Source of the DNA: Thiogranum sp.
GTDB lineage: Bacteria > Pseudomonadota > Gammaproteobacteria > DSM-19610
Assembly (NCBI GenBank): GCA_030148805.1
Contig: JASBSS010000035.1
Coordinates: 1 to 64,000, forward strand
Direction: 5' to 3'
Length of the DNA: 64,000 nucleotides
Position 1 is the first letter of the stretch; every line of letters starts with the position of its first letter. The notes beneath the pieces are model-generated. The model saw only the letters and a program-made list of their open reading frames with translations. It was not told the DNA's origin and searched no databases. The translations under genes were made by a program, and so were the position numbers. Positions 5,264 through 63,319 of the stretch are shown here, piece after piece.

Positions 5264-6916
5264 ATGTACAAGACGATGAGCAAGGCATTCGCTGTAATTA
5301 TCGCCACGGCGGCACTGGCCGCGTGCGGCGGCGGCGGCAGAAGCGATTCGAGCGGTTCCGGCTCGGGCGCAGGTGGTGGCGGCGGCGGTGGAACAACTCC
5401 CGCACCGGCGGTGACCATGACGTTGAATGCCGGCTTGACGTCGCTTTCTGCTGGCGGCAGCACGTCTTTGAACGCCGTGCTGACCGACGACCTGGGCAAC
5501 CCCTACGTGCAGGAAGTCGACGTCAGTTTCTCTTCACCCTGTATCGGCACCAATCAGGCCACCGTCAATTCCCCGGTGACCACCGCGACCGGCACGGCCA
5601 ACACCACCTACACCGCGCAAGGCTGCACGGGTAACGACACCGTGACCGCCAGCACCGTGATCGACGGATCCACCGTATCGGCTTCCGTGACCATCAATGT
5701 GGCGGCGGCCACGCTGGGCTCGATCGAGTTCGTCTCGGCCAGCCCCACCAATATCGCGCTCAAGGGCATGGGCGGCGCCGGGCAGTCGGAAGCCTCGACC
5801 GTCACCTTCCGGGTGCGCGATACGGCCAGCGCGCCGATTGCCAACCAGTCGGTAACCTTCACCCTGAACACCTCGGTGGGCGGATTGCAGTTCAGCCCGG
5901 GCAGCAACACGGCCACCAGCGGTTCAGACGGCCTGGTGCAGACCATCGTACAGTCCGGCACCGTGGCCACCCCGGTTCGCGTCACCGCGACCGTCGACGC
6001 CACCGGCATCAGCAGCCAATCGGACCAGTTGGTGGTCACCACCGGTATTCCCGACAACAACAGCTTCTCGCTGAGCGCGGCGACCCTGAATCCCGAAGCC
6101 TGGAACGTCGACGGCGTCCAGGTGGCGATCACCGCAAGACTCGCCGACCGTTTCAACAACCTGGTACCGGATGGGACCACCGTCGTGTTCACCACCGAAG
6201 GCGGCGCCATCGGCGGCTCCTGCCAGACCATCAGCGGCGCCTGCAGCGTCAACTGGACCAGCCAGAACCCGCGCCCATCGACCGATTCGCTCAACGGCAC
6301 CACCGGCAACGCCGGCCGCGTCACCATCCGCGCCACCGCCGTCGGCGAGGAATCCTTCACCGATCAGAACGGTAACGGTACCTATGACGTGGGCGAGCCC
6401 TTCGATGACCTGCCCGAAGCGTTCCTCGACGAAAACGAAGACGGTATTTACCAGCTCAGCGAACCGTTCGCCGACTTCAACAGCGACGGCACCTACAACA
6501 CACCGGACGGCGCCTACAACGGCGTGGTCTGCAACAGCAGCAGCTGCACGGTGTCGACGCTGAACGTGCGTGACTCGGTCACCCTGGTGATGTCCGGCTC
6601 CAGCGCCTCCATCACCATGCCCGCGACCCTCACCGCGCCGACCAGCTTCACCGTGGACGTGGTCGACGTCAACGGTCAGGTGATGCCCGCCGGCACCGTG
6701 GTGAGCGTGACCACCGACAATGGGAAGATCTCCGGCCCGGGCTCGTTCACCATTCCCAGCACGGCGACCAACTGCAATCTGAACCCGGGCGCGTCGTCCT
6801 GCCGCTTCACCTTTTCGGTGGCGGCCGATACGACTCCCAGCAGTGGTATTCTGACCCTCTCGGTGCTCACCCCCGGCGGGCTGAACACCATCAGCACCGC
6901 GACGGTGAACGACTAA
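5264..6916 (+). CDS. Secreted Ig-like repeat lipoprotein
   Basis: Probable surface or periplasmic lipoprotein of unknown role. ATG at 5264 is preceded by AAAGGA; a longer in-frame start at 5192 would put an Arg-rich stretch before the signal and is rejected. Residues 1-21 form a lipoprotein signal with lipobox LAAC (Cys21). A Gly/Ser linker (to about residue 45) and several Big/invasin-type Ig-like domains rich in Thr, Val and Ser follow. Near residues 365-420 are two or three acidic Asp/Asn loops of the form DxNxDGxY, resembling calcium-binding repeats. It lies 78 bases after pilQ and just before a strong terminator, so co-transcription with pil is likely; an adhesin or pilus-accessory role is inference. 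The C-terminus ends within an Ig-like domain. Confidence 0.8.
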   Translation: MYKTMSKAFAVIIATAALAACGGGGRSDSSGSGSGAGGGGGGGTTPAPAVTMTLNAGLTSLSAGGSTSLNAVLTDDLGNPYVQEVDVSFSSPCIGTNQATVNSPVTTATGTANTTYTAQGCTGNDTVTASTVIDGSTVSASVTINVAAATLGSIEFVSASPTNIALKGMGGAGQSEASTVTFRVRDTASAPIANQSVTFTLNTSVGGLQFSPGSNTATSGSDGLVQTIVQSGTVATPVRVTATVDATGISSQSDQLVVTTGIPDNNSFSLSAATLNPEAWNVDGVQVAITARLADRFNNLVPDGTTVVFTTEGGAIGGSCQTISGACSVNWTSQNPRPSTDSLNGTTGNAGRVTIRATAVGEESFTDQNGNGTYDVGEPFDDLPEAFLDENEDGIYQLSEPFADFNSDGTYNTPDGAYNGVVCNSSSCTVSTLNVRDSVTLVMSGSSASITMPATLTAPTSFTVDVVDVNGQVMPAGTVVSVTTDNGKISGPGSFTIPSTATNCNLNPGASSCRFTFSVAADTTPSSGILTLSVLTPGGLNTISTATVND

Positions 6917-10000: not shown

Positions 10001-10148
10001 CATTGCCGGAAATCCGGTCGGCGCTCTGGCGCTCGCCCAGCAAGCCCTTAAGCATCTCGTTGGCAGTATGGCTGTACCCATACCCGAAAGCGCCCAGGGC
10101 ACCGACGGCGGTGGCCCCTTTTATGAAATTGCGCCGTGAAGCGGACAT
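7080..10148 (-). CDS. ttrA: Tetrathionate reductase catalytic subunit TtrA
   Basis: Molybdopterin guanine dinucleotide enzyme that reduces tetrathionate to thiosulfate in the periplasm. The 1022 residues match the length of the characterised Salmonella TtrA, and I recognise extended shared segments, for example VGKRGSGQWAPISFEQLVEE and the C-terminus ending RQGLPAKIEKL. A twin-arginine signal (RRNFIKG, Arg5-Arg6) directs export. Cys77, Cys80, Cys84 and Cys142 would hold one [4Fe-4S] cluster, and Cys258 in SYCGL is the likely molybdenum ligand. It is the last gene of ttrBCA, 38 bases after ttrC. Related polysulfide or thiosulfate reductases are shorter and less similar. Confidence 0.92.
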   Translation of the reverse strand: MSASRRNFIKGATAVGALGAFGYGYSHTANEMLKGLLGERQSADRISGNAPKPEFAVDPVTGHLTPNPEQTVAYTLCMGCTTICGVRVRVDNARNKVLRVTGNPYHVLSSDPFLPYETSVSDSFQALSRYQERGLVARSTACGRGNAVLEKLDAAQRVRVPLKRVGKRGSGQWAPISFEQLVEEVVAGGDLFGEGRVEGLQAIRDLETPIDPEQPEFGPKANQLAVMPAFKDGRLRFAARFAKQSFGTVNFAGHRSYCGLSMRAGYAALLGEWKKMPHLKPDFSNSEFLLFIGTAPASAGNPFKRQGQLLAKARSDGKLKYVVVDPVLTNSDNLSSGERSRWIPIKPGTDGALVMAMIRWILENDRYDAGFLSRPSAAAAAVAGEAGWSNASHLVIVQENHPERGKFLRAADVVAGNAEEIMVIDPASGQALPQGAVQEAVLFYEGSIKVPGGTEIAVKSSLALLRDEARGHTLQEYAEACGISVDTIIELADEFTSHGKRAAVDCHGGTMASNGFYNAYAIVMLNALVGNLNVKGGTGAGGGKFKEIAPGPRYNLKKFAGAVKPKGVGLGRNAPYEKSTEYKRKLAKGENPYPAKAPWYSLSPTMTSEFLPSALNEYPYPLKALILWSSNPLYGVAGLREQIKEKLADPKALPLIVSIDPFINESNAYADYIVPDSVLYESWGWASAWGAHLTKVSTARWPVVEPAQTKNAEGRPIDMETFFIAVAKRMGLPGFGDNAITDKDGKQYPLQSAEDFYLRAAANVAFDGRPVPDASDEDIALSGVTRIASTLQQTLKPDEWRKVAYVYARGGRFENGDRSYEGELLRHRYDKPMQIYDEHLATARHSLTGEYFVGTPTWVPPALADGSPLAAAFPPTEWPFQAVSTKSQLQSSHTIDAQSLRAIHPSNTIGLHRSDAERLGVRSGEAVRVTTPGGSVEAIAQVRSGIKRGVLGIEHGFGHRQLGASVQRIGKQVLPADGGAGNGVSINDLGFADPKRSGYCVLTDWVVGSVARQGLPAKIEKL

Positions 10149-10186
10149 GTCATGTTCTCCTGAAGTCTTTCATCAATGTTCGTGGA

Positions 10187-11266
10187 TCAGCGCCCGATCC
10201 GCGGTGGGTCGCCCCGCCAGGGCAGGAAGCTGGTTATCGCCAGCAACAACAACACCCATAGCCCCAGCGTACCGACCAGCCCCGCCATACCTTCGGCGCC
10301 CGGCGGCAGCTCATAGGGAAAAAAACCGGCGCCGGTTTTGGGAATACGCTGACCATCGATGAACATGCTCCAGCGTAACCACCAGCTCCCCGCGAGCGCT
10401 AACGCGCCGGCCAGCAGCGGCAGACGCCTGGCCAACAACAAGGGCACCAGGGTGCCCACACCCAGCCATAGCAGCGTGAACAACAGCGGATGGTATTCGC
10501 TGGCCAGGCGCAGGGCGACGGCGCCCGAGACCGACCAGCCGAACCGACCGGCCAGTAGCCAGGCGGCGGCCAACCACAGCGTCAGTCCGGAACAAGCCGC
10601 CACGACGCGGGCCAAGCGGGCATCAGTGGAGGCCTCCGCGCCCAATAACCGGCCCAGCAGCAGGCTCAATCCGGCGGCGCCGGCAAAGGCCGTGGTGATA
10701 AACAGCAACGGCATGAACGGCGAGTGCCACAGCGCCCGGGTAGCGACCACGGCCATTTCGACACCGGTATACAGCGCCACCAGGAGGGCCGCGATGGCTG
10801 TCGCCAAACCGACCAGTCGCACGGCAAGCGGCGCGGCGCGCCCGCCAAGAGCCAGGACACGGGCGATGCGCGCCATCATGCCGCTGCGCCCTCCGGCCTG
10901 GGCGGCCAGACCCGGCCGATAGATCAGCCACGCATAGGCCATCAGGCAGAGCACGTAGACCGGCAGGAAAAACGAACCCCACGACATCCATGAAGCGGGG
11001 GTTACGTGCAAATAGAAGTTATAAAAACGCGACGGCTGATGCAGATCGGCCACGAGTGCGATCGGCGCCACGATCCCGCAACTGAGTGCCACCACCAACG
11101 CCACGTGCGCCAGTCCATCCCATTCGCGGCGGCGGAACACGAATGCCGGCAGCGTCAGAAAGAAGGCCGCATAACTCAATCCGATCAGGAAAAAGTACTG
11201 GACACCCCAGGGCAACCAGGCGACATCATGTGCCACATTGATGAGTTCAACAATTTCACCGTTCAT
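10187..11266 (-). CDS. ttrC: Tetrathionate reductase membrane subunit TtrC
   Basis: NrfD/PsrC-family integral membrane quinol dehydrogenase that passes electrons to TtrB and anchors the complex. Its 359 residues contain about nine hydrophobic helices, beginning with VQYFFLIGLSYAAFFLTLPA and ending in a helix just before a basic C-terminus. The start codon overlaps the ttrB stop in an ATGA arrangement, so translation is coupled. Family and operon position make the assignment firm, although NrfD-like proteins are poorly distinguished by sequence alone. Confidence 0.88.
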   Translation of the reverse strand: MNGEIVELINVAHDVAWLPWGVQYFFLIGLSYAAFFLTLPAFVFRRREWDGLAHVALVVALSCGIVAPIALVADLHQPSRFYNFYLHVTPASWMSWGSFFLPVYVLCLMAYAWLIYRPGLAAQAGGRSGMMARIARVLALGGRAAPLAVRLVGLATAIAALLVALYTGVEMAVVATRALWHSPFMPLLFITTAFAGAAGLSLLLGRLLGAEASTDARLARVVAACSGLTLWLAAAWLLAGRFGWSVSGAVALRLASEYHPLLFTLLWLGVGTLVPLLLARRLPLLAGALALAGSWWLRWSMFIDGQRIPKTGAGFFPYELPPGAEGMAGLVGTLGLWVLLLLAITSFLPWRGDPPRIGR

Positions 11267-49445: not shown

Positions 49446-51263
49446 TCAGGACGCCGCGGAACCCTGTCCGTCGTTGATATAGGCGCGCCACCCCCCAAAG
49501 GCGGAGATATCCACGGCACCGTCGAGTCCACAGGGCTCGCAAATGAATCCGGTGACCCAGCTGCCGTCGGCCAGTTGCACCTTGCCAAGCCCCAATGGCG
49601 CGGGAACCTGGTGCAGGAAATCCGCCACCGCCGCGCGCGGCAACGCCCAGACTTCAACCTCGATAGCTGTGCTGTGCGGCGTGCGCACCAGCGCCGGACG
49701 CGCTGGCGGTCCGCCCGGCAGGGCATAGAGTCGATAGTCGGCCGAGGTTCGGGTGCGCCGCAGCAGCCGAGCGCCGCGCTGGGTCAACTGGCTGTTGAGC
49801 GGTAAACCGGACAGATGGGCGCCACAGACCGCCAGGGGCATGGCCGCGCTCGACGTCGGAGTGCTCCTGCCAAGGGGTGGCGGCAACGCGGTGGCGACGG
49901 CGCCGCAGCCGATATCGGCACTGCGATGCAGGCGATCGCCCACCGCCAGCAGCGCGTGATCGGCCCCGGCCGGCGCGAACAGGGTCACGCCGAACGGCAG
50001 GCCGTCGCGCTGGAACCCCGCCGGGACCGCCACGGCGCTGCAATCGAGCAGATTCATGAAATTGGTGTAGTAGCCCAGCTCGGTGTTGAGTCGCACCGGA
50101 TCGGCGTTCACCGCGTCGATGCGATAGATGCTGCCGGCGGTCGGCGTCAGCAGCATGTCGATCTCCTGCCACAACCGATCACAACGACGCTTGTAAGCCA
50201 TCAGGCGATACTGTGCCTTGAAGGCGTCCACCGCGCTGGGCCGGCGGCCGGCGGCGATGATTTCGTGTGTCACCGGCAACAGCGCCTGCGGCTGCTGCTC
50301 GATAAAGGACTCGATGGCCGCGTAGCGCTCGCTCACCCAAGGCCCTTCGTACAACAGTCGCGCCGCGGCCAGAAACGGCTCGAAGTCGACGCTCACCACT
50401 TCAGCACCAAGCGCCGCCAGTCGCTGCCTGGCCTGGGCAAACAGCGCCGCAGTGTCGTCGTTGGCGAAGAATTTGAGCTGATCGTCCCGCGGTACCCCAA
50501 CGCGCCGGCCCTCGACCAAGGTGTCTGTCCGGTCCACGGGCAACGCTCGGGCATAGGGATCCTCGCCATCGAACTGCGCCGCTACCTGTAGCACACGGTG
50601 CGCGTCATCGCTGCATAGCGAGAAGACCGAAACACAATCGAGCGAGCGACAGGCGGGCACGAGGCCGCGGGTGCTGAGCAGGCCGCGCGTGGGCTTCAGA
50701 CCCACGATGTTGTTGAACGCCGCCGGCACCCGGCCCGAGCCGGCCGTATCCGTGCCCAGGGCAAAGCTCACCAGCCCCCGGGCCACCGCCACCGCCGAGC
50801 CCGAACTCGATCCGCCCGCTATATAGCGCCGGTCAAAACTGTTCTCGCACGCCCCATAGGGCGAGCGCGTACCCACCAGACCGGTGGCAAACTGATCCAG
50901 ATTGGTCTTGCCCACCGGCACCGCGCCCGCCTCGATCAACCGCTCCACCACGAACGCCGAGCGCGGCGGCGTGTACGCATAGGCCGGACAGGCCGCCGTC
51001 GTGGGCACACCCGCCAGGTCGATGTTGTCCTTGATCGCAAACGGAATCCCGTACAACGGCCGGTCCTGCGGCGAATGGCCCGCCAGCGCTTCCAGATACG
51101 GCTCAATCTGCGCCGGCGTCAACCGGGTGATCCAGACATTGCCGTCGGCGTTGGCCGCCAGCCGCCGCTCCAGTTGCGCGAACAACGCCTGCGGGGTGAA
51201 ACAACGCCGGCGATAGGCGTCGAGCAAGGTTGCGATATCCAGACTTTGGTTGGCTTCAATCAT
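49446..51263 (-). CDS. atzF: Allophanate hydrolase
   Basis: Amidase-signature enzyme cleaving allophanate to ammonia and CO2. ATG at 51263 gives 605 residues. The Ser-cisSer-Lys centre is visible: Lys in FAIKDNIDLAGVPTT and the serines in GGSSSGSAVAVA and GTDTAGSGRVPAAF. The C-terminal domain (from about residue 450) is the allophanate-hydrolase-specific part. It overlaps the carboxylase gene by eight bases and is the last gene of the operon, making the final nitrogen-releasing step. Confidence 0.93.
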   Translation of the reverse strand: MIEANQSLDIATLLDAYRRRCFTPQALFAQLERRLAANADGNVWITRLTPAQIEPYLEALAGHSPQDRPLYGIPFAIKDNIDLAGVPTTAACPAYAYTPPRSAFVVERLIEAGAVPVGKTNLDQFATGLVGTRSPYGACENSFDRRYIAGGSSSGSAVAVARGLVSFALGTDTAGSGRVPAAFNNIVGLKPTRGLLSTRGLVPACRSLDCVSVFSLCSDDAHRVLQVAAQFDGEDPYARALPVDRTDTLVEGRRVGVPRDDQLKFFANDDTAALFAQARQRLAALGAEVVSVDFEPFLAAARLLYEGPWVSERYAAIESFIEQQPQALLPVTHEIIAAGRRPSAVDAFKAQYRLMAYKRRCDRLWQEIDMLLTPTAGSIYRIDAVNADPVRLNTELGYYTNFMNLLDCSAVAVPAGFQRDGLPFGVTLFAPAGADHALLAVGDRLHRSADIGCGAVATALPPPLGRSTPTSSAAMPLAVCGAHLSGLPLNSQLTQRGARLLRRTRTSADYRLYALPGGPPARPALVRTPHSTAIEVEVWALPRAAVADFLHQVPAPLGLGKVQLADGSWVTGFICEPCGLDGAVDISAFGGWRAYINDGQGSAAS

Positions 51264-54200
51264 TTTTCGACGCCTCGGTTTCCAGAACCACGATCGCCCG
51301 CCCCGCCTGCACGGCCTTGCCCTGACGGCACAACAGCTGCCTGACCCTGCCGGGTGCATCGGCTTCGACTGCGATCTCCATTTTCATTGCTTCGACCACC
51401 ACCAGGGTGTCGCCCGCGGCGACGCGCTGACCGAGCGCCACGGCAATCTTCCAGACGCTGCCGGTGACCGGCGAGGCGACCCACCGGCAACCGTCCGGCG
51501 GCGCCGACGCGCCCGGATCCGGCGCGCACTGCGAGGCCGGCGTCTGCGGATCCTCGGGCAGGCCGAGCTGCGCCCACCGCTCGCGCTCGGCGTCAAAGGC
51601 TGCCTGTTGGCGATGCTTGAAGGCGGCGATGCTCTCGGCGTTGACGGACAGAAAGCGGTGGTAATCCCGTAGATTCAGCTCACTGTCCTCGACCCGCAAA
51701 CGCAGCCGGCCGAGCGTGAAGTCCTCGCGCATGCGCGCCAGTTCCGCGCTAGTCACGGGAAAGAAACGGATCTGGTCAAAAAAGCGCAGCAGCCACTGTT
51801 TGCCGTCGCGGAAGTCGGCGCTCTGCCGGTAACGGTTCCACATCTGCAAAGTGCGCCCGACAAACTGATAGCCCCCCGGACCTTCCATACCGTAGACACA
51901 CAGATAGGCACCGCCGATACCGACCGCGTTTTCCGGCGTCCAGGTGCGCGCCGGATTGTACTTGGTCGTGACTAGCCGATGGCGCGGATCCAGCGGCGTC
52001 GCCACCGGGGCACCGAGATAGACATCCCCGAGCCCCATTACCAGATAGGTGGCGTTGAAGACGATTTGCTGGACCTGCTCGATCGACTCCAGCCCGTTGA
52101 TACGGCGGATGAACTCGATATTGCTCGGACACCAGGGCGCGTCGGCGCGCACCGACTGCATATACTTTTCTATCGCCAGGCGCGTTGACGGATCGTCCCA
52201 CGACAGCGGCAGGTGCACGATGCGGCTGGGGACCACCATGTCCTCGACCGGCGGCAACTCCGCCTCGGCCTCCAGCAGACGCTCCAACAGTTGGGCCTGG
52301 CCGAGACGCTGGCTGTCAAAATGCACCTGCAGCGAACGGATCCCCGGCGTGAGATCCACGATTCCCGCGATTTGTTGTCGCTCGATCCAGCGCATCAGGG
52401 CGTGAGCGCGCAGACGCAGGTTCAAATCGAGGACCGGCGGTCCGTATTCGATCAGCAGGTTACGGTCGCCCGCCTGACGATAGCAGACCGCCGGTCCGTG
52501 CTCAGTGGCGGCAAGTTGATGCAGCACGGGTGAACCTGCCGTCGCGGCTAACGGGAGTGGGTGAACCGTCGCACACTGGGGCGTGAGCGTCGCGATCATC
52601 CGCTGCTGCGCCAACTCGGCCTGGCGCGCCGTCGCGATATCGATGCGGTGGAAACGGATCCGGTCTCCGGGGCGTAGCTGTCCGAGCTTCCACAGCTCCG
52701 CCTGGGCCAACGTGGCCGGACAGACAAAGCCGCCGAGACTCGGCCCGTCCGGACCGAGGATGACCGGCATGTCGCCGGTGAAGTCGATACTGCCGACAGC
52801 GTAGGCGTTGTCGTGGAGATTCGACGGATGCAACCCGGCCTCGCCGCCGTCGCTGCGGGCCCACTGCGGCTTGGGCCCGATCAGGCGGACGCCGGTGCGG
52901 CTGGAGTTATAGTGCACCTCCCAGTCGATGGCGAAAAACGTCTCGATATCCTCGGGGGTGAAGAAATCCGGCGCGCCATGGGGGCCATACAGGACCGCGA
53001 TTTCCCACCTGTCGCCATAGTGGGGTATCAAGGCATCCGGCAGCGCACGGCAATCGCCATCCAGCCCCGCCGCCTGGTGCAGACGCAACACGTCGCCCAC
53101 TTGCAGCGGCCGCCCGCCGTGGCCACCGAACTGCCCCAAGGTGAAGGTCGATCGGCTGCCCATGTATTCGGGCACATCGAAGCCCCCTTTCACCGCCAGA
53201 TAGGTACGACTGCCGCCACCACCAATGGAACCCAGCTCGAGCACACCGCCGGCGGGGACGACCAGCGGGCGCCAATACTCCACCGGCTCGCCATCGAGCC
53301 GCGCCTGCATGCGCGCGCCGCCCAGCGCCACCACGCTCTGGGCCTTGAACCGCAGGGTCGGTCCGGTGACCGTCAGCTCCAGCGCCGCCGCCCCCGGCGG
53401 ATTGCCGAGCACCCGATTGACCAACCGAAACGCCAGATTGTCCATGGGACCGGAAGGTGGCACGCCGATGTTCCAGTAACCCTGCCGACCCGGATAGTCC
53501 TGGATCATCGACTGGGTGCCCGCCGCCAAGACATCCACCCCGAGCGAGCGGTAGGCGAAGTGTTCCAGCCAGCGGGTGTCGTGGGCGGCGGCGGCGAAGG
53601 TCGGCGCCGCGACAATCTGTCGCAGGTAGGCCAGATTGGTCTCGATGCCGTGCACGGCCGTGCGCGCCAGAGCGTCGCTCAGCGCCTGCAGTGCCGCGTC
53701 TCTGTCAGGCGCGTGAACGATCAATTTTGCCAACATGGGGTCGTACCAGGACGACACCTCGCTGCCACGCTCGATCCAGGTCTCGATCCGCGCCGCTTCG
53801 GCAAAGCGAAGCTCGGTCACCACGCCGGCCGCGGGTTGAAAGTGTTTGCCGGGATCCTCCGCATAAAGGCGGACCTGGATGGCGTGGCCGCGCGGCCGAT
53901 GACGGTAGTCGGCGAGAAAACCGCTCTCGCCGGCCGCGGCGCGCAGCATCCATTCGACCAGATCGACGTCGGTCGCCGCCTCGGTGACCCCGTGTTCCAC
54001 CTGCAGGCGCGTGTTCACCTCGAGAAAATAACACTCGCCCGCGTCCCGGTCGTAGACAAACTCCACCGTACCGGCCGAGCGATAGCTCACCGCGCGCCCG
54101 AGCGCCACCGCCTGGCGCTGAACCCGCGCCCGCAGGGCCTCGTCGATCCCCGGCGCGGGCGTCTCCTCGACGATCTTCTGATTGCGCCGCTGCAACGAGC

Positions 54201-54882
54201 AGTCACGCTCGCCCAAGGCCACTACGCCACCCTGGCCGTCGCCGAAAATCTGCACCTCGATGTGACGGGCGCTGTGCACGTACTTCTCCAGGAATATGCC
54301 ACCCTGGCTGAAGTTGCTGCGCGCCAGCCTTTCCACCGATGGGAAGGCCTGCTCGAGTTGCGCCTGGTCGTGGCACAATTGCATCCCGATACCGCCACCG
54401 CCGGCCGTGCTCTTGAGCATCAGCGGATAACCGACACGCGTGGCCTCGCGCCGCGCGTGCGCCAGATTCTGCAGCAGCCCGCTTCCCGGCAGCAGCGGCA
54501 CCTCCGCTTGCGTGGCCAGCTCGCGCGCGCTGTGTTTGAGCCCGAAGGCGCGCATCTGCGCGGGGGTCGGGCCGATGAAGGCCAGGCCGGCGCTTTCGCA
54601 GGCCTGCGCGAATTGCGGATTCTCGCTGAGAAACCCGTAGCCGGGATGGATCGCGTCGGCACCGCTGCTGCGCGCCGCCTGGATGATCCGCTCGCCGTCG
54701 AGATAGCTCTGCGCGGCCGGTGCCGGGCCGATGCACAGCGCCTGGTCGGCGTCGCGCACGTGCAGCGAATGGGCGTCGGCCTCGGAGTACACTGCCACCG
54801 AAGCGATACCGAGACGTTTCAGGCTACGAATGATACGACAGGCGATAGCGCCGCGATTGGCGATCAGGACTTTTTCGAACAT
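51256..54882 (-). CDS. Urea/guanidine carboxylase, biotin-dependent
   Basis: ATP-dependent biotin carboxylase of the urea carboxylase family. ATG at 54882 gives 1208 residues: an N-terminal biotin carboxylase domain (1-450; ATP-binding GGGGIGMQLCH), a KipA/KipI-like carboxyltransferase region (about 490-1080, GYWNIGVPPSGPMD), and a C-terminal biotinyl domain with Lys in VEAMKMEIA. Proteins of this family encoded with the DUF1989 pair have been shown to carboxylate guanidine, giving carboxyguanidine, rather than urea. Given the neighbours, guanidine is my preferred substrate; urea is possible as a side substrate. Confidence 0.93.
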   Translation of the reverse strand: MFEKVLIANRGAIACRIIRSLKRLGIASVAVYSEADAHSLHVRDADQALCIGPAPAAQSYLDGERIIQAARSSGADAIHPGYGFLSENPQFAQACESAGLAFIGPTPAQMRAFGLKHSARELATQAEVPLLPGSGLLQNLAHARREATRVGYPLMLKSTAGGGGIGMQLCHDQAQLEQAFPSVERLARSNFSQGGIFLEKYVHSARHIEVQIFGDGQGGVVALGERDCSLQRRNQKIVEETPAPGIDEALRARVQRQAVALGRAVSYRSAGTVEFVYDRDAGECYFLEVNTRLQVEHGVTEAATDVDLVEWMLRAAAGESGFLADYRHRPRGHAIQVRLYAEDPGKHFQPAAGVVTELRFAEAARIETWIERGSEVSSWYDPMLAKLIVHAPDRDAALQALSDALARTAVHGIETNLAYLRQIVAAPTFAAAAHDTRWLEHFAYRSLGVDVLAAGTQSMIQDYPGRQGYWNIGVPPSGPMDNLAFRLVNRVLGNPPGAAALELTVTGPTLRFKAQSVVALGGARMQARLDGEPVEYWRPLVVPAGGVLELGSIGGGGSRTYLAVKGGFDVPEYMGSRSTFTLGQFGGHGGRPLQVGDVLRLHQAAGLDGDCRALPDALIPHYGDRWEIAVLYGPHGAPDFFTPEDIETFFAIDWEVHYNSSRTGVRLIGPKPQWARSDGGEAGLHPSNLHDNAYAVGSIDFTGDMPVILGPDGPSLGGFVCPATLAQAELWKLGQLRPGDRIRFHRIDIATARQAELAQQRMIATLTPQCATVHPLPLAATAGSPVLHQLAATEHGPAVCYRQAGDRNLLIEYGPPVLDLNLRLRAHALMRWIERQQIAGIVDLTPGIRSLQVHFDSQRLGQAQLLERLLEAEAELPPVEDMVVPSRIVHLPLSWDDPSTRLAIEKYMQSVRADAPWCPSNIEFIRRINGLESIEQVQQIVFNATYLVMGLGDVYLGAPVATPLDPRHRLVTTKYNPARTWTPENAVGIGGAYLCVYGMEGPGGYQFVGRTLQMWNRYRQSADFRDGKQWLLRFFDQIRFFPVTSAELARMREDFTLGRLRLRVEDSELNLRDYHRFLSVNAESIAAFKHRQQAAFDAERERWAQLGLPEDPQTPASQCAPDPGASAPPDGCRWVASPVTGSVWKIAVALGQRVAAGDTLVVVEAMKMEIAVEADAPGRVRQLLCRQGKAVQAGRAIVVLETEASKND

Positions 54883-54935
54883 GGCCGATTTCTGGTTTTC
54901 CGAAGCTGGCCGGGCCGTCCCAGCGCGTCTGCGAA

Positions 54936-54957
54936 GCCGGCGGGTCGTCCCGCCGGC
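54936..54957 (-). repeat. GC-rich hairpin before the carboxylase gene
   Basis: GCCGGCGGG and CCCGCCGGC pair perfectly around TCGT in the 82-base gap between the second DUF1989 gene and the carboxylase gene. This is the longest gap among the enzyme genes. It may stabilise or partly terminate the mRNA and set enzyme ratios. Confidence 0.4.
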
Positions 54958-54964
54958 CGATCCC

Positions 54965-55633
54965 TCAAGGCTGCCAGAGCAACACCTCGACCGGGGTCGG
55001 GTTGTAGGCATTGCAGGGATTGTTCAGCTGGGGACAATTGGATATCAGCAGCAGAACATCCATTTCCGCGCGCATCTCCACATAGCGCCCCGCAGCGGAG
55101 ATCCCGTCGGCGAAACACAGCTCGCCGTCCTCGCTCACCGGGACGTTCATGAAGAAATTGATATTGCTCGGCAGATCCCGCTTGCTCATGCCCTGATCAT
55201 GCGCCGCCAGCGCCAGCAGGAAACTGTCGCTGCAGGCGTGCATATGGCGTTTGTCCAGAGCGTAGCGCACGCTGTTGCTTTCGGCCGAGCAGGCACCGCC
55301 CAGGGTATCGTGACGGCCACAGGTATCGGCGACGATGGTCAACATCGGATTGCCCAGATTCGACAACAAGCGGCTACCGGTTCCGAGGTAGATATTGCCC
55401 TGGGCGCGCACCGTGTGGTTCGCGTCATAACGCTCTTCGGTATCCGCGGCATTGTAGAACAAGGTATCCACCGCCTGATTGCCTTCAAGGTCCAGGATAC
55501 GCAAAATCTGGCCACGCTCGACGGTATGCAGAAACGGCTCACCGGCCGGTATGATCCGGCGAAAGAAGGCCTCTTCGTTTCTGAGTGAACTCTCGCAAAG
55601 GCTGGCGTGCATGACGGTATCCCCTTCAGGCAT
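54965..55633 (-). CDS. Carboxyguanidine deiminase subunit (UAAP2, DUF1989)
   Basis: Second of two DUF1989 proteins long annotated as urea amidolyase-associated protein 2. ATG at 55633, overlapping the previous gene by eight bases, gives 222 residues. Conserved Cys/His/Asp residues are seen in [34 protein letters not shown] and FFMNVPV. The pair was shown in other bacteria to form a carboxyguanidine deiminase (CgdAB), converting carboxyguanidine to allophanate. Confidence 0.88.
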
Positions 55634-56366
55634 AGAAGCGCTCCGTATTGATATAAGCGCGCTGGTTCTCGGGACAGCGCAAGCGGCATGGGTCGTCCGC
55701 CGCCGCCACGCCCGACTTCCAGGCGGTAAGCGCAACCGGCCTCGGGGCGTAAGCGATCGCCGGATCCAACGGATGCTGGCAGGTCGACAGCACCACCAGC
55801 CCTGTCATCTCGAAGCGCAGATCGACCAGATCGCCCGCGCGCGAATGCTCCGGACAGAAATGCATGTCGCCCGCGGCGTCGACGGTCACCTTGCTGAACA
55901 AATTCAAGTTGGCCACCAGGTCGCGTCTGCCCAGGCCGTACTTGGCCAGCTCATTGAGCAGACTGTCGTAGCCGTTACGGTGATAGTCGTTGCGCAAACT
56001 CTGGTAGTTGCCCTCGCCATACCTCGCCTTGACGCCCGCGGCGTCGGAAACGCCGCACAAGGTATCGTGCCAACCGCAGGTATCGGCCGCGAACGAACAG
56101 ATCACCCGTCCCATATCGGTATAGCACGCATGCCCCGCGGTCAAGAACGCAGTGTGCTGGCCTTTGAGCGTGTCCGCCATGTTGTAGCGCTCCTGGGTGT
56201 TCTCCCAGTTGTAACACAGCAAAGAGACATTGGCCCCGCCTTGCAGATCGGTGATGCGCAAGCTGTTGCCGCGACGCACCACCCCCGACCAATGCGCGCC
56301 ACCAGGCACCTCTTCCTCCCACAACACGAGGGCGGCATCCAGTGTCGGAGCCGGATTTTCAGACAT
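55626..56366 (-). CDS. Carboxyguanidine deiminase subunit (UAAP1, DUF1989)
   Basis: First of the DUF1989 pair, 246 residues. It shares with its partner the motifs [30 protein letters not shown] and NLFSKVTV, placing both in one fold, and probably forms a hetero-oligomer with it. It overlaps the regulator gene by eight bases upstream and the partner by eight downstream, so production of both is likely coupled. Which of the two is CgdA or CgdB I leave open. Confidence 0.88.
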
Positions 56367-56844
56367 TGCAAGTTTCTCCTGTTACGCTTGGGTGGGCCGC
56401 CGGCAACGGGTGCACCGGCGGGAGAATCACCGTGGTCAACTGCAGCCGCCCGGTGGTGACGCCGCGGCAGGTGAGCATCCGGTCGAAGATCGACTGCAAC
56501 CGCGCCGCCGGTCCCTGCACCAGAATCACCTCCATGGTGTGCGCGTGGATCAGATGCACGTGCAGCGAACTGATCACTTCCGTCAAATGCGCGTGCTGCA
56601 AATCGGCCAGTTGTTTCTGCAGGCCGGGTGTCGAATTGTCATAGACCAGGGTGATGGTGCCGGCCATGATTTCCTCGCCCAGCTGTTGTTGGTGTTCCGC
56701 CAGCTGCTTGTTGATCATTTCGGCGATCGCCTGCGAGCGGCTTTCGAAGCCGCGCGCCGCGACCATCTGATCGAGGGCCCGGAGCAAGGGCTGGGGCAGC
56801 GACACGCTGACACGGCTGACTCCGCTTTTGACGCCTTCGTTCAT
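56359..56844 (-). CDS. NikR-like ribbon-helix-helix regulator
   Basis: Transcription factor with an N-terminal ribbon-helix-helix DNA-binding domain (RVSVSLPQPLLRALDQMVAA, 11-30; then RSQAIAEMI) and a C-terminal ACT-like metal/ligand domain. The 161 residues exceed E. coli NikR by a C-terminal tail. Relative to E. coli NikR the ligands His76, His87 and His89 correspond to His84, His95 and His97, but the essential Cys95 is Thr103. Nickel sensing of the classical kind is therefore doubtful. Its place inside the guanidine operon and a palindrome of NikR geometry upstream suggest it controls this operon. Confidence 0.85.
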   Translation of the reverse strand: MNEGVKSGVSRVSVSLPQPLLRALDQMVAARGFESRSQAIAEMINKQLAEHQQQLGEEIMAGTITLVYDNSTPGLQKQLADLQHAHLTEVISSLHVHLIHAHTMEVILVQGPAARLQSIFDRMLTCRGVTTGRLQLTTVILPPVHPLPAAHPSVTGETCNV

Positions 56845-56890: not shown

Positions 56891-57838
56891 TCAAAACACG
56901 CTCCCCACTTCATCCTTGACCGAGACCATGCGCACCATATTGAGCTGATCCTCGTTCAGCCCGGGTTCGGCCGCCGGCGGGTGAATCAATTTCTCGATAT
57001 GCCGGCGCGTGGCGAGAAACTCCGGCGCCAGCAGCTGCTCGGGCCGGCGCGGCTGCGCCACCGGCACCTCGATCAGTTCGCTGACCTCGCCGGGGTGCGC
57101 CTTGAGCACCAGAATCCGATCGGCGAGAAACACCGCCTCGTCGAGATCGTGGGTGATAAAGACAATGGTGATGTCGATGTTGGCCCAGATCTCCATCAGA
57201 TAAGCCTGCATGCGCGCCCGCGTTTGCGCATCCAGCGCCCCGAAGGGTTCGTCCATCAACAGAATGCGCGGCTGATTGGCCAGGGCGCGGGCGATCGCCA
57301 CGCGTTGTTTCATGCCGCCGGACAACTGGTGCGGGTAACAGCGGGCGAACTTGTTCAGGCCGACCAGATCGATCCATTGCATGGCCTCCTCCTCGGCGGC
57401 CAGACGCCCGCGACCGGCCATTTCGAGGCCGAACATGACGTTTTTCTTCACCGTCAGCCAGGGAAACAGGGTATAGCCCTGGAAGACCATGCCGCGATCG
57501 GGACCGGGCCCGGCGACGGCCTTGCCGTCGAGCAGTACGCGACCGCTATCGTGGCTTTCCAAACCGGCGAGGATGCGGATCAAGGTCGACTTGCCGCAGC
57601 CGGAAGGCCCGATCACGCAGACAAACTCGCGCCGACGGGTTTTGAAATTGATATCCCGCAGCGCCGTGACGGGACCCTGCGCGGTGGCAAAGGTCTTGCC
57701 CAGGCCCTCCACTTCGAGCAGCACCGGGCGGCGGCGCAGACGCGCGAGGCGCTCGCGCACCGCCGGCGACTGATCGCGGTAACTGGGTAGCTCGAGCGCG
57801 GGCGCCTCGCCCCGGCAGTTGCGCACTTCGCCATTCAT
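56891..57838 (-). CDS. ABC transporter ATPase (guanidine/urea operon)
   Basis: ATP-binding subunit of the nitrate/taurine (SsuB/TauB) importer type. ATG at 57838 gives 315 residues. Walker [10 protein letters not shown], signature [15 protein letters not shown], Walker [13 protein letters not shown] and switch His in FITHD are all intact. A C-terminal extension of about 70 residues follows the core. It overlaps the permease by four bases. Substrate inferred from context. Confidence 0.9.
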
Positions 57839-58800
57839 CCGCGCGCCGCCGTCTTCTGCCAGGGGAAGATCCGCCGGCCGAGCCAGGCCAGCAGCAGATC
57901 GGTCGCCAAGCCGATGATGCCGATCATCATGATTGCCGCATACACGTTGTCGAAGTTCTTGTAGCGCGCCTGCTGGGTGATGAACCAGGTGATGCCCGAG
58001 CTGGTACCGATCAGTTCGGCGACGATCAGATAGGTCCAGGCCCAGCCCAGCAGCACGCGCATGTCGCGAAACAGATCGGTGACAATGCCGGGGATCACCA
58101 CGCGCAACAGCAATGCCGGATTGCGCGCCCCCAGGGTCTGCGCGGCCTCCAGCAGGGTGGGATCGAGCTTGCGCGTGGTATTGGCGACCACCAGGACCTG
58201 CTGGAAGAAGGTGCCGATGAAAATAATGGCGATTTTCGGTGCCTGGTAGATCCCGAGAATCGCCACCGCAAGAGCGCCGAAGGCGGGCGCCGGCAGATAG
58301 CGGAAGAACTCCACGAACGGCTCGAACAACCGTGAGACGAAATCGAAAGTGCCGGCGAGAATGCCCAACGGCACCCCGATCAGCGAGGACAGCACAAACC
58401 CCCAGAAGATCACCTGGATGCTCTCCCACAGACTCTCGTGCAGCCACTTTTCGCTGCGCCGCTGCGGCGGGTCGGTGAAGGCAGTATAGAAAGCGCGCGC
58501 CACCTCGTGCGGCGCCGGGAGATAGATCGGGTTGGCCGCATAGCCAACCGGTGGCGCGCGCCGCTGTTGCTGCGCCCGCGCCACTTCCGCGGCGAAGGCC
58601 GCGCGCTCGAGCTGCATGCCGGGGCGCAGATAGGTGACGCTGCCCGGATCGGTGATCGCCACCTGCGGATGCCAGATCCAGGGCACATAGCTGACCAGCG
58701 ACCAGAGCAACAACGGCAACACGAAACTCATCATTCCGGTGACACGCCGGGCTCGCGGCGGCAGGCTGGCGCGCACGGCAAACCATGGGGACCCCGACAT
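57835..58800 (-). CDS. ABC transporter permease (guanidine/urea operon)
   Basis: Binding-protein-dependent permease with 321 residues and about six to seven helices. The first helix (residues 24-40) is followed by a roughly 90-residue loop absent from simpler homologues. The EAA motif for ATPase contact is [13 protein letters not shown]. It lies 42 bases after the binding-protein gene. Confidence 0.9.
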
Positions 58801-58842: not shown

Positions 58843-59826
58843 CTACAGAGCGCCGATCAGCGACGGGTCGATGTAGGCACCGACCGGCTGCGGCCGCTTG
58901 TAGACCTTGTTGGCGATGTTGAAGTCGTCGGCGATCTGGCTCGAGCCGTACAGCGAAGAGAAGCCGCCGCCTTTGAGGAAGTGCGCGCGGGCCTCTTGCA
59001 GCGTCAACAGCCTGGTGCCGGCGAGAAAGGTCCTGTACTCGGCCGGCGGCACGCCCACGCGCGCGGCCATGATGTTCACCGCGTCTTCATGGGTCGCCGG
59101 ATCGCGAACATAGTCCACCACCCGATACCAGACCTTGAGCACCTTCAGCCATTGATCGCGCTTGGCCGCCAGGCTTTCCGGCGACACGCTCAAGACATCG
59201 TAGATCAGACCCGGTTCGTCGGCGCTGGTGTAAATGGGTTTGGAGCCGGGCACCAGTTGCAGCGCCGAACCCGAGTTCGGCTGCCAGGCGCAGACCGCGT
59301 CGACCTCGCCCGAGGCCAGCACCTGCGGCGTCTCGTTGGTCGGCACGTTCACCAGCTCGACGTCGGTCTCGCTCATGCCGGCTTTCTTCAGGCCGTTGAG
59401 CAACAGTAGGTGATCGACGAAGCCGATCTCCACGCCGATCTTTTTGCCCTTGAGCGCCGCCAGCGATTCGATCCCCGGGGCGCCGATCACCATGTCGTTG
59501 CCGTTGCTGTAGTCGTTGATCAGGATCATCACGCTTTCGGCGCCGCTGGCACCGGTGACCAGGGCATCGCCGTTGGTCATGCTGACCGCGTCGAGTTGAC
59601 CGGCGGCGAAGGCGTCCATCGAAGCCACGTAGTCGAACCATTCGAACTTGACGTCGACGCCGGCTTCCTGGAACCAGCCTTTGTCCAGCGCCACCTCCCA
59701 CGCCACCCAGCCCGGCCAGTCGCTGTAACCGATCTTGAGCGGTTCAGCGCCGGCGGTCGGCGTAAGCAGGACAAACAGCAGGGCGGAAAACATAACTCTC
59801 AGGCGCGTGGCCAGGCGTGTATTCAT
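58843..59826 (-). CDS. ABC transporter substrate-binding protein
   Basis: Periplasmic NMT1/SsuA-like binding protein; 327 residues with a signal peptide (about 1-27, cleavage after AGA). The fold is shown by [20 protein letters not shown], a start typical of urea-carboxylase-associated binding proteins. It is the first gene of the eight-gene operon, behind a sigma-54 promoter. GGAG lies ten bases before the start. Guanidine or a related compound is the likely ligand, by context only. Confidence 0.88.
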
Positions 59827-59831
59827 GGGCG

Positions 59832-59879
59832 GCTCCGACGGGTATTACGAAAGTGTTGTTAGGTATTACCCGTCGGAGC
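59832..59879. promoter_or_regulatory. Large palindrome, candidate NikR-like operator
   Basis: Arms 59832-59848 and 59863-59879 are 17 bp each, with a single mismatch, around 14 bases; the outer 13 bp are perfect. Inside are GTATTA (59842-59847) and TATTAC (59864-59869) separated by 16 bases, the spacing of the E. coli NikR site GTATGA-N16-TCATAC. The palindrome covers the predicted sigma-54 start near 59866, so the upstream arm would be mostly untranscribed; a DNA operator is favoured over an RNA hairpin. Confidence 0.6.
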
Positions 59880-59892
59880 AAGCGACGTGCCA
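59877..59892 (-). promoter_or_regulatory. Sigma-54 promoter of the guanidine operon
   Basis: The minus strand reads TGGCAC-GTCGC-TTGCT, a perfect match to the -24/-12 consensus TGGCAC-N5-TTGCW. The predicted start is near 59866, 40 bases before the binding-protein gene. It overlaps the outer edge of the palindrome by three bases. Confidence 0.88.
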
Positions 59893-59968
59893 AGGCGAGA
59901 AAAACAAGTAACCTGTTGTTTTTTAATTATGTAATTTCATCTCGCCCGGACCTGGCAGCACCCTCGCA

Positions 59969-60004
59969 CGCGCCGCTTTGGTGCCGCCGCACAAGCGCGG
60001 TGCG
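59969..60004 (-). promoter_or_regulatory. Two NtrC-like sites of the guanidine operon
   Basis: GCGCC-GCTTT-GGTGC (within 59969-59985) and GCACA-AGCGC-GGTGC (within 59988-60004) each match nine of ten core positions of GCACY-N5-RGTGC. Their centres are near -111 and -130 of the predicted start, a normal distance for NtrC enhancers. The rest of the 310-base gap up to the tRNA holds nothing else I can identify. Confidence 0.6.
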
Positions 60005-60136: not shown

Positions 60137-60213
60137 GCGCCCGTAGCTCAGCTGGATAGAGTGTCGGCCTCCGAAGCCGAAGGTCACAGGTTCGACTCCT
60201 GTCGGGCGCGCCA
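60137..60213 (+). tRNA. tRNA-Arg (anticodon CCG)
   Basis: A full cloverleaf of 77 bases: acceptor GCGCCCG/CGGGCGC with discriminator G and encoded CCA, D arm GCTCAG..., anticodon stem TCGGC/GCCGA with loop CT-CCG-AA, and T arm with GGTTCGACTCC. It decodes CGG codons. Mobile elements and low-GC DNA begin right after it, making it a candidate integration site. Confidence 0.96.
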
Positions 60214-60439: not shown

Positions 60440-60714
60440 TCAGGCCGCCTGTTTCGCGAACACGGCCGGTGGCTGGCCATTCAGTGAACGGTGAGGCCGC
60501 ACTTCGTTGTAATGCACACGCCAGTCCTCGATGGTGCGTCTGGCATCAGCCAGGTCACGAAACCAATAGAGGTTCAGACACTGATCCCGGAACTTGCCAT
60601 TGAAACTCTCGACAAAGGCGTTCTGGGTGGGTTTGCCCGGCTGGATGAAGTGCGACTTCACGCCCGTCCTCCGGCTCCAGAAAAACAGCGCCTTGCTGGT
60701 GAACTCCGGACCGT
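60440..60714 (-). pseudogene. IS3 orfB transposase, 3' part
   Basis: C-terminal part of the DDE transposase, beginning inside the motif GPEFTSKAL and containing the catalytic Glu in [15 protein letters not shown] and the ending [18 protein letters not shown]. It joins exactly to the 5' part at 62281: together they read VCDNG then PEFTS. Alone it is non-functional. Confidence 0.9.
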
Positions 60715-60745
60715 AATACAAACGGAAGCATGGTGCGAGATCAGC

Positions 60746-60802
60746 CATTTGTATCAGAATCATTGATGACCAAACCAATGATCCGTAAAGGAGATACAAA
60801 TG
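60746..60802 (+). promoter_or_regulatory. Nested hairpin at the IS110 transposase start
   Basis: CATTTGTATC (60746-60755) pairs perfectly with GATACAAATG (60793-60802), which contains the start codon. Inside it, ATCATTG (60759-60765) pairs with CAATGAT (60776-60782). The Shine-Dalgarno AAAGGAG lies in the enclosed region. The structure would hide the start codon and could limit transposase synthesis. Confidence 0.55.
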
Positions 60803-62041
60803 ACTGATGCCAATAAGTCTAGCGCAAATCAGGTCCTTATTGCGATTGACATCGCTAAACAGAGCCACGATGCCGTCATTGCCTGGCCGTCCGGCCGGAC
60901 AAAGGCAGTGAAAATCGCCAACTCGTTGGCGGGATACGAGCGGTTGATAAGTTACGCGGATACCGATCCGCGCTCATTGTGCGTAGCATTTGAGCCGACG
61001 GCCGATTATCACCGCAATATCGCTTATTGGCTTCAGGCGCATGGTGTCCATTGCTGTCTTGTCTCGTCATTGGCCTGTGCGCGCGCCAGGGAAATGCTGT
61101 TCAAGACCTGGGATAAGCATGATCGTAAAGATGCGCATGTCATTCTGTATCTGATGCAGCAGAGTTTGATGCAGCCCTTCTACGACCCACTTGTGGCAGA
61201 GACGATGGATATCCAGGAACTGTCTAACACGTACCACCAGATATCGCTCGCCAGAACACGCTGCCAACACAGCCTGGTTAACCACTATCTGACCTTGTAC
61301 TTTCCCGAGATGGAACGTTACCTGCACAATTCGAGGTCGGAGTGGTTCTGCCGTTTGTTGCTGCGTTACCCGACACCGCGCTCGATTACGCGTCACAAGC
61401 CAGCGGCGTTCGTGAAACACGCCTGGGATGTGGTTGGCCGAAAGGTCGCCAAACAACGCTTCCTGGAGGAGCTCTACGAAACAGCCGCGTCGTCGATCGG
61501 GCTCCCAGTCGATCCGACCAGTCTGGCCGTAAGAACCTTTAAACTGCAGTTGGAACGCTATCTGACATTGAGCCTGCAGCGCAGCGAGCTGGAGAAAACC
61601 GCCGACAACATCCTGCTTCAGCGCGACGACTACCGGCTGCTCAGGACCTTGCCTGGGGTCGGCCCAGTTATCGCGTTAATGATCATAGCGGAAAGCGGCG
61701 ATCTGAAACGCTTCCGTCACTACCGCCAATATCTAAATTTCTGCGGCTTCAACCTGTCCGCGGCACAAAGTGGACAACAGCAGGGGCGTTACCAGCTATC
61801 CAAGCGCGGCAATGCGCGTTTGCGATACGCCTATTGGCTGGCGGCGGTGAGCGCCACGCGGCAGCGCGAAAACAGCTTTCGATACAAGTATGAATGCTAT
61901 ATCCGCGATGATCCCGACAACGCCGATCTTAAGCGAAAAGCGCGTGTGGCTGTGGCGACGAAGATGGCTCGCGTCGCTCATGCTCTTGTCAAACAGAATA
62001 CCGATTATCGTGGATTTTACGAGTTCGGTCATGGGACGTAA
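60800..62041 (+). CDS. IS110-family transposase
   Basis: Recombinase of the DEDD type with 413 residues. The RuvC-like N-terminal domain has Asp17 (LIAIDIAKQ), Glu65 (AFEPTADYH), Asp108 and Asp111 (DKHDRKDAH). The C-terminal Tnp_20 domain starts near [14 protein letters not shown] and has a candidate serine nucleophile, Ser324, in SAAQSG. The gene is intact and begins with AAAGGAG seven bases before ATG. IS110 enzymes use a bridge RNA encoded in the element's non-coding end for target choice. Confidence 0.93.
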
Positions 62042-62280
62042 CTCAGTCGGGCCGTCAGGGCGCCTCGCGACCCTGTAGATAATGCTCTACGCTCATGACC
62101 TTCTAAACATGCTGTGTTAAGTCCTGTTGGGCCACACAAGATGGACCCGTGTACATTATGGTGAGCAAACCTTTATCGAAGGGGGCTGGGCTGCTGAGCG
62201 TTACGAACGCTGGTCATGACATCGCCACCAGGCATGCCATAGGAGATTCTTATGCAAAATGACTTGACTCCGCTGGTAGT
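62042..62280 (+). other. IS110 3' non-coding end, candidate bridge RNA region
   Basis: These 239 bases hold no gene. Hairpin potential is visible: CAGGG/CCCTG near 62055-62075, and a perfect AGCGTT/AACGCT around a three-base loop near 62197-62211. A long structured non-coding end is where IS110-group elements carry their guide RNA. No loop-to-target match was established. Confidence 0.35.
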
Positions 62281-62828
62281 CCGTTGTCGCAGACAATGAT
62301 CTTCGGTAATCCGCGGCGCTCGGCCAGCTCATCAAGATAACGCGCCACGCGCTGCCCGGAGATCGAGGTATCGACCACCTGGCCGACACACTCGCGACTG
62401 AAGTCATCGACGATGTTGAGTGTCCGGAAGCGTCTGCCACCCGCCAGTTGGTCGCTGAGAAAGTCCATAGACCAGCGCTCGTTGATGCCATTCGGAACCA
62501 GCATCGGTATCCGTGGCCGCTTCAGCTTCTTGCGCTTCTTGGTGCGCACCTGAAGTCCTTCCTCGCAGTACAGTCGGTAGGTGCGTTTACGGTTCTGCAC
62601 CAGTCCTTCGGTCTTAAGCATGTCGTGCAGGGTCGGATAGCCGTACTTCGGATACTGCTCGGCCAGCGCCTTCAGACGGTCTCGCAGCGCGCTGTCGTCC
62701 GGCCGGCAAGACTGGTAACGCAGCACGGAGCGGGACAGCTCCAGGAGGCGACACGCCCGCCGCTCGGACAACCCCAGCTCGCTCACCACGTGACCGGCAG
62801 CCAGCCTACGGACAGCGGGCGTTACCAT
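62281..62828 (-). pseudogene. IS3 orfB transposase, 5' part
   Basis: N-terminal part of the IS3 transposase, from ATG 62828 (MVTPAVRRLAAGHVVSELGL) through the HTH-21-like domain and the first catalytic Asp in RWSMDFLSDQL to the second in IVCDNG, where the IS110-family insertion cuts it. Its start overlaps the orfA end at a run of seven A residues on the minus strand, a typical -1 frameshift site. Confidence 0.9.
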
Positions 62829-63088
62829 TTTTTTGAAGCGATCTCCTTGAGTGCCGCCTTGTCCAGCTCGGCCTCGGCCAGCAGTCGCTTCAAACGCGCG
62901 TTCTCGGCCTCCAGTTCCCGCAGGCGCTTGGCCTCGGATACCTCCATGCCGCCGAACTTCGCCTTCCAGCGGTAGAGCGTGTTCTCCGTCACGCCATGGC
63001 GACGCGACAGGTCAGCCATCGCGGCGCCGGCCTCGTACTCCTTCAGGATCGAAATAATCTGTTCTTCGGTGTAACGCTTGCGCTTCAT
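62822..63088 (-). CDS. IS3-family orfA
   Basis: Helix-turn-helix DNA-binding protein of the IS3 element; 88 residues from ATG 63088 (MKRKRYTEEQIISILKE), with GGGAGG ahead. It ends with a leucine-zipper-like helix (LRELEAENARLKRLLAEAEL) and KKW. The gene is intact, but with orfB split the element cannot move by itself. Confidence 0.9.
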   Translation of the reverse strand: MKRKRYTEEQIISILKEYEAGAAMADLSRRHGVTENTLYRWKAKFGGMEVSEAKRLRELEAENARLKRLLAEAELDKAALKEIASKKW

Positions 63089-63129
63089 ATCGGGACCTCC
63101 CTGGGTCACAATTATAGGGAAATCCCACA

Positions 63130-63319
63130 TACGACATGGCTCGGATTACGGGGGTACGGTCATCCTTATACTTAAAGATTTCCATAAGCTCGGATATTCT
63201 ATTAGATGCCATCTTTAAGAAGGGGGCATGATAAGGCACCGGATGCGATGCACAGATAACTCAAGAATAGCTTTTACTCATAGCGTATAATGCTTCCTTA
63301 TAAGCTCGTTCATCATAAA
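63130..63319. other. Low-GC gap with a possible truncated ORF
   Basis: The 190 bases between the IS3 end and the methyltransferase gene are AT-rich. On the minus strand an ATG at 63239 opens a frame of about thirty codons that runs into the IS3 end; it could be a gene start cut off by the insertion. No function can be assigned. Confidence 0.3.

Follow-up and report, generated by a model that had tools for sequence, protein, structure and literature searches.

A NikR-like regulator as a candidate protein sensor of guanidine at the promoter position of the Guanidine-I riboswitch

A guanidine-assimilation operon of Thiogranum sp. carries a palindromic operator on its predicted transcription start and encodes a NikR-like regulator, and sequence comparison indicates that the two stand where related operons have the Guanidine-I riboswitch. 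It is quite probable that the promoter combines NtrC/sigma-54 activation with a nickel-blind NikR-like repressor that is released by guanidine or a guanidine derivative and replaces Guanidine-I. The evidence leans, less firmly, towards the wider proposal that a NikR-derived clade of nickel-blind repressors acts as a guanidine sensor and has been exchanged repeatedly with Guanidine-I at the same promoter position. At the sequence level, comparison of related loci supports the promoter layout, the conservation of the operator, the loss of nickel ligands and the replacement of the riboswitch. A guanidine-sensing regulatory protein was not known according to a 2025 review, and no earlier report of a NikR-family regulator in guanidine metabolism was found in the open-licence literature; among proteins that might sense guanidine, the NikR-like protein is the strongest candidate so far. 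Both an operator and a promoter can be assigned to this candidate, for which nature supplies dozens of replicates, and the loci appear to offer a case in which a protein sensor and an RNA sensor have repeatedly taken each other's place at a single promoter position.

Gene content and pathway assignment

The window, that is, the whole stretch of 64,000 nucleotides that was analysed, contains the following operon, listed in gene order.

58843..59826, minus strand: ABC transporter substrate-binding protein (SsuA/NMT1-like; weak TIGR03427)
57835..58800, minus strand: ABC transporter permease (profile matches)
56891..57832, minus strand: ABC transporter ATPase (profile matches; start codon approximate)
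56359..56844, minus strand: NikR-like regulator (RHH_1 and NikR_C), Thr at the Cys95 position, member of the guanidine-operon clade
55626..56366, minus strand: UAAP1, carboxyguanidine deiminase subunit CgdA (TIGR03425, 355 bits)
54965..55633, minus strand: UAAP2, carboxyguanidine deiminase subunit CgdB (TIGR03424, 336 bits)
54910..54956, minus strand: Guanidine-II (mini-ykkC) riboswitch between the CgdB and carboxylase genes (RF01068, 39.6 bits; gathering score 32)
51256..54882, minus strand: guanidine carboxylase, carrying the annotation urea carboxylase; its residue at K. lactis position 1330 is Asp
49446..51266, minus strand: allophanate hydrolase (assigned from its place in the operon and from homologous neighbours)

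As judged from its sequence, this is an operon for guanidine assimilation and not for urea or nickel. The carboxylase has Asp aligned to K. lactis Asn1330, and the residue at position 1330 separates guanidine from urea carboxylases (PMC11410670; PMC12186494). This diagnostic Asp is accompanied by CgdA, CgdB and allophanate hydrolase (the last assigned by context and neighbours), which together make up the guanidine carboxylase pathway, and the Guanidine-II element inside the operon marks it as part of a guanidine riboswitch regulon. Guanidine-I is absent from the operon, and none was found in the window genome. By a crude scan for ACGR hairpins, Guanidine-II-like hairpin pairs occur in 27 of 47 operons of the same gene order. 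Guanidine-II is not universal in operons of this order, and because such pairs occur in just these 27, guanidine may act through the NikR-like protein alone in the remainder.

Several features of the surroundings are recorded here. A tRNA-Arg(CCG) gene lies beside the window operon (60137-60213, plus strand), and the operon of the nearest relative (L028) also adjoins a tRNA (6631-6704). Transposase genes occupy 60440-63130 of the window, namely an integrase-core (rve) fragment, an IS110-family gene and further transposase-like open reading frames. Genes for a creatininase-family protein and a type III glutamine synthetase (GS-III) often lie between the ATPase and NikR-like genes of related loci (for example, L029, 7851-9998), and they are also found behind Guanidine-I in L120 and L113; the window has neither.

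Promoter architecture

The promoter elements lie upstream of the substrate-binding-protein gene, whose ATG is at 59826 on the minus strand.

59988..60004, minus strand: NtrC-like site CGCACCGCGCTTGTGCG, centre -130
59970..59984, minus strand: weaker NtrC-like site GCAC-N7-GCGC, centre -111, one mismatch, read directly
59877..59892, minus strand: sigma-54 promoter TGGCACGTCGCTTGCT, 11/11 scored positions matching
about 59866, minus strand: predicted transcription start, inferred, 12 nt past the -12 C (59878)
59832..59879, no strand assigned: 48-bp palindrome (inverted-repeat search, RNA folding and arm comparison)
59842..59869, minus strand: core operator GTAATAC-N14-GTAATAC (GTATTAC-N14-GTATTAC on the plus strand), 6-16-6 geometry as in NikR operators, about -4 to +25

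A sequence-only reading of this region had proposed a perfect TGGCAC-N5-TTGCT element followed by a 48-bp palindrome covering the start, and both are borne out. Direct reading of the minus strand gives TGGCAC-GTCGC-TTGCT at 59892-59877, from which the usual -12 rule places the start at about 59866, an A within the upstream arm of the palindrome. The palindrome, the sole inverted repeat of the region, consists of two 17-nt arms (59832-59848 and 59863-59879) that are complementary at 16/17 positions around a 14-nt centre. Two NtrC-like sites had also been placed near -111 and -130; the distal one is an exact GCAC-N7-GTGC (60003-59989), but the proximal one is weak. Across related loci, 18 of the 66 upstream regions contain GCAC-N7-GTGC, whereas 0.6 would be expected. 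The window genome encodes one RpoN and one NtrC above the curated cut-off, so that a -24/-12 element, an upstream NtrC-like site and both cognate proteins coincide, as in a sigma-54/NtrC promoter, the activity of which is predicted.

Conservation and extent of the operator

Eighty loci encoding NikR-like relatives were collected, and the regions 5' of their transporter genes were aligned. An operator matching at least 12 of 14 positions within 300 nt upstream was present in 66 of 69 orthologous promoters compared with 2 of 690 shuffles, a frequency that is conditional on the presence of the regulator, since the loci were chosen via its gene; the count becomes 67 of 69 with L067, which was added after its start codon proved misplaced. 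A sigma-54 element with at least 10/11 matches precedes the operator in 64 of the 66 promoters and in none of 690 shuffles. Measured from the T of TGG, the operator of related loci lies in most cases at a spacing of 22-23 or 28-29 bp, and both groups of spacings place it on the start site. The lack of conservation beside orthologous operons had been named as a result that would overturn the earlier proposal; instead, a 28-bp core is found at the start site nearly everywhere.

The conserved element spans 28 bp, GTAWTAC-N14-GTAWTAC (ATATTAC-N14-GTAATAC in Thiobacillus-like genomes), and contains a conserved GTAWTA-N16-TAWTAC, which is the operator geometry of NikR, with two 6-bp half-sites 16 bp apart. 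Beyond this core, outer-arm complementarity in related loci falls to chance level after 1-2 nt. The functional unit, as far as comparison of sequences can define it, is the 28-bp core (59869-59842), and the outer 10-bp arms of the window palindrome are incidental. The original proposal of the whole 48-bp palindrome as the unit thus stands for its inner part, but not for its arms.

The 3.78-Mb genome contains a single exact match to the operator pattern, at 59842-59869, and because of this uniqueness and its conservation relative to shuffles, the operator is not a chance occurrence. Among 1.83 Mb of related loci there are 77 strong operators (at least 13/14), 70 of which lie at a transporter gene and a further 6 at genes for CgdA (4), a carboxylase (1) or a permease (1). 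A genome-wide NikR-like regulon was considered and rejected, as matches with at most two mismatches numbered 9 compared with 12 for a control pattern.

An RNA hairpin that masks the Shine-Dalgarno sequence, or an attenuator, might also produce such a palindrome: a transcript holding both arms of the 48-nt palindrome folds strongly (z -3.9), and the Shine-Dalgarno GGAG lies within the 3' arm. However, the palindrome is split by the predicted start. Since the start falls inside the upstream arm, mRNA from about 59866 cannot form the hairpin (z +0.6 when folded from there), in agreement with the sequence-only reading. Moreover, the pairing of the outer arms is unconserved even in L028, which is without the left outer arm, and a search for an upstream sigma-70-type promoter found none. 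The hairpin was rejected on the position of the start and the unconserved arms, and is scarcely credible as an explanation. A Guanidine-I or other riboswitch under the palindrome was likewise rejected, none having been found there. The initial suggestion of a repressor-type DNA operator on a sigma-54/NtrC promoter is supported by the conservation of the core and by the genomic RpoN and NtrC.

A NikR-like clade that lacks the nickel site

The regulator has the NikR family fold, with Pfam RHH_1 and NikR_C both above cut-off; its best Foldseek matches are all NikR, with a TM score of up to 0.96 for the C-domain. It nonetheless belongs to a clade separate from canonical NikR (support 99). In E. 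coli NikR, nickel is bound by His87, His89, Cys95 and His76 (PMC7055735), and the corresponding HHHC set is present in 19/19 canonical NikRs in contrast to 0/88 clade members. Nearly all members have Thr, Met or Leu at the Cys95 position, and all three His residues are kept in 19/88; the window protein reads HHHT and does not carry the full ligand set of a nickel sensor. A new conserved pocket for guanidinium was not recognized.

It is very improbable that the regulator is an ordinary nickel-responsive NikR, although it has the RHH and NikR_C domains, exceeds the NCBIfam thresholds NF003381 and NF002815, and retains three His ligands in the window protein. Against that assignment, Cys95 is missing in 88/88 clade members, just 19/88 have all three His, and the protein misses the cut-off of the TIGR02793 nikR equivalog (85.7 vs 175.5 bits). 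Its gene neighbours are guanidine-assimilation genes, and the genome holds a single exact operator, which does not fit the control of nickel uptake or nickel enzymes; the carboxylase pathway also differs from the nickel-dependent guanidinase route (PMC12186494). The name 'nickel-responsive regulator NikR', under which such proteins are annotated in these operons, is probably wrong.

Exchange with the Guanidine-I riboswitch

A class sample of 369 genomes included 29 with CgdA above cut-off. The NikR-like gene lies beside CgdA in 8 of these, none of which has Guanidine-I, and 20 of the other 21 have Guanidine-I (Fisher 2e-6). The remaining genome (G299) has neither, its contig ending before the promoter, and one Guanidine-I genome (G213) encodes a NikR-like protein as well, though on a different contig that lacks CgdA. 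Strict exclusion per genome, first suggested by the 29-genome sample, was rejected, as Guanidine-I was present in 20 of 50 further regulator genomes: 1 of the 29 with CgdAB-carboxylase in the regulator operon and 19 of the 21 others (p 1e-10). On this sequence evidence, the regulator and Guanidine-I exclude each other at the level of the transcription unit rather than of the whole genome. Nine loci have their deiminase and carboxylase genes in a separate unit (L037, L041, L042, L048, L054, L079, L083, L086 and L095), and in each of them Guanidine-I lies directly 5' of CgdA.

Some loci contain two adjoining guanidine operons with different sensors (L041, L042, L054, L079 and L083, and also L037, L048 and L095). 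In these pairs, the transporter, creatininase, GS-III and NikR-like genes lie behind a sigma-54 element and an operator-type site, and CgdAB-carboxylase is under Guanidine-I.

The riboswitch side of the comparison is consistent with replacement at one position. The 20 riboswitch leaders all score below 13 against the operator, with 12/14 in L126 and at most 10 in the others, and sigma-54-like elements precede 16 of the 20 riboswitches. A transporter of the same type (about 70% identical) has Guanidine-I and no operator in L120. The sole transporter promoter among the 69 with no operator at all, that of L061, has Guanidine-I in the place of the operator (4735-4841) and retains a NikR-like gene (10001-10486), and is possibly an intermediate of the exchange. 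On a carboxylase tree with loci labelled by their actual control type, control changes 8-11 times, and neighbours may differ, as L117 with a riboswitch and L137 with an operator do; the tree was built with FastTree and arbitrarily rooted, so the direction of change is not readable from it. Several of these comparisons rest on draft genomes.

Proposed mechanism and candidate ligand

In the proposed mechanism, NtrC and sigma-54 would switch the operon on when nitrogen is short, and a NikR-family repressor, the product of a gene of this operon, would bind the 28-bp operator on the start and block transcription until guanidine, or a close derivative, most likely at the C-terminal domain, releases it. 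Guanidine-II, deeper in the operon, would act as a second checkpoint that controls the carboxylase gene. Low nitrogen and guanidine would both be required, as in an AND gate. We infer from the comparison that the NikR-like protein binds the operator, that it represses rather than activates, and that guanidine is its ligand. The sequence-only reading had already envisaged an AND gate in which nitrogen starvation is joined by a second signal releasing a repressor, an idea that the present data favour; because the nickel site is lost and the regulator occupies the position of a guanidine riboswitch, that signal is now most likely guanidine-related and not nickel.

The repressor might instead bind the operator and sense another ligand, such as a pathway intermediate, methylguanidine, a creatinine-like compound or a nitrogen-status metabolite. 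In many loci the regulator occurs with the creatininase-family and GS-III genes, sometimes without a nearby carboxylase, and in some genomes its operon consists only of transporter, creatininase-like and GS-III genes; furthermore, Guanidine-II riboswitches do not discriminate between guanidine and methylguanidine (PMC12508155). However, the set of transporter, creatininase and GS-III genes also lies behind Guanidine-I in L120, and a more distant version of it in L113, and Guanidine-I is specific for guanidine (PMC12508155). The in-operon cases, in addition, place the whole guanidine pathway under the NikR-like regulator. A different ligand is unlikely on balance, though a serious alternative.

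Activation, or mere tuning, of the promoter by the bound protein is improbable. In favour of such a role, the binding position shifts by about 6 bp between the two spacing groups (22-23 vs 28-29), and mechanism is not readable from sequence. On the other hand, a site at -4 to +25 is typical of a repressor, and sigma-54 activators work from upstream, where the NtrC-like sites occur.

Comparison with known systems

Among the nearest known counterparts are the NikR proteins of E. coli, H. pylori and P. horikoshii, ribbon-helix-helix (RHH) nickel repressors with which the regulator shares the two-domain RHH and NikR_C organization and a palindromic operator with 6-bp halves 16 bp apart. The operator of E. 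coli NikR is GTATGA-N16-TCATAC (PMC7055735), whereas the half-site here is GTAWTA; the HHHC ligands are found in none of the 88 clade members, and the targets belong to guanidine assimilation instead of nickel uptake. An inducible pathway would be expected here, which is opposite in sign to co-repression by nickel.

Promoters for nitrogen scavenging under NtrC and sigma-54 share the -24/-12 element and the NtrC-like sites upstream of it, but the operator at +1 in the window would add a second, substrate-linked condition.

The riboswitch-run guanidine carboxylase operons of Vreelandella boliviensis, Raoultella terrigena and Klebsiella michiganensis contain the same kinds of gene, with Guanidine-II placed after cgdB and before the carboxylase gene (PMC12508155), and sigma-54-like promoters are shared by the riboswitch operons sampled. 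In the characterised V. boliviensis operon, Guanidine-I is at the start and Guanidine-II before the carboxylase (PMC12508155), whereas the window operon has, in place of a first-position Guanidine-I, a start-site operator and a regulator gene of its own.
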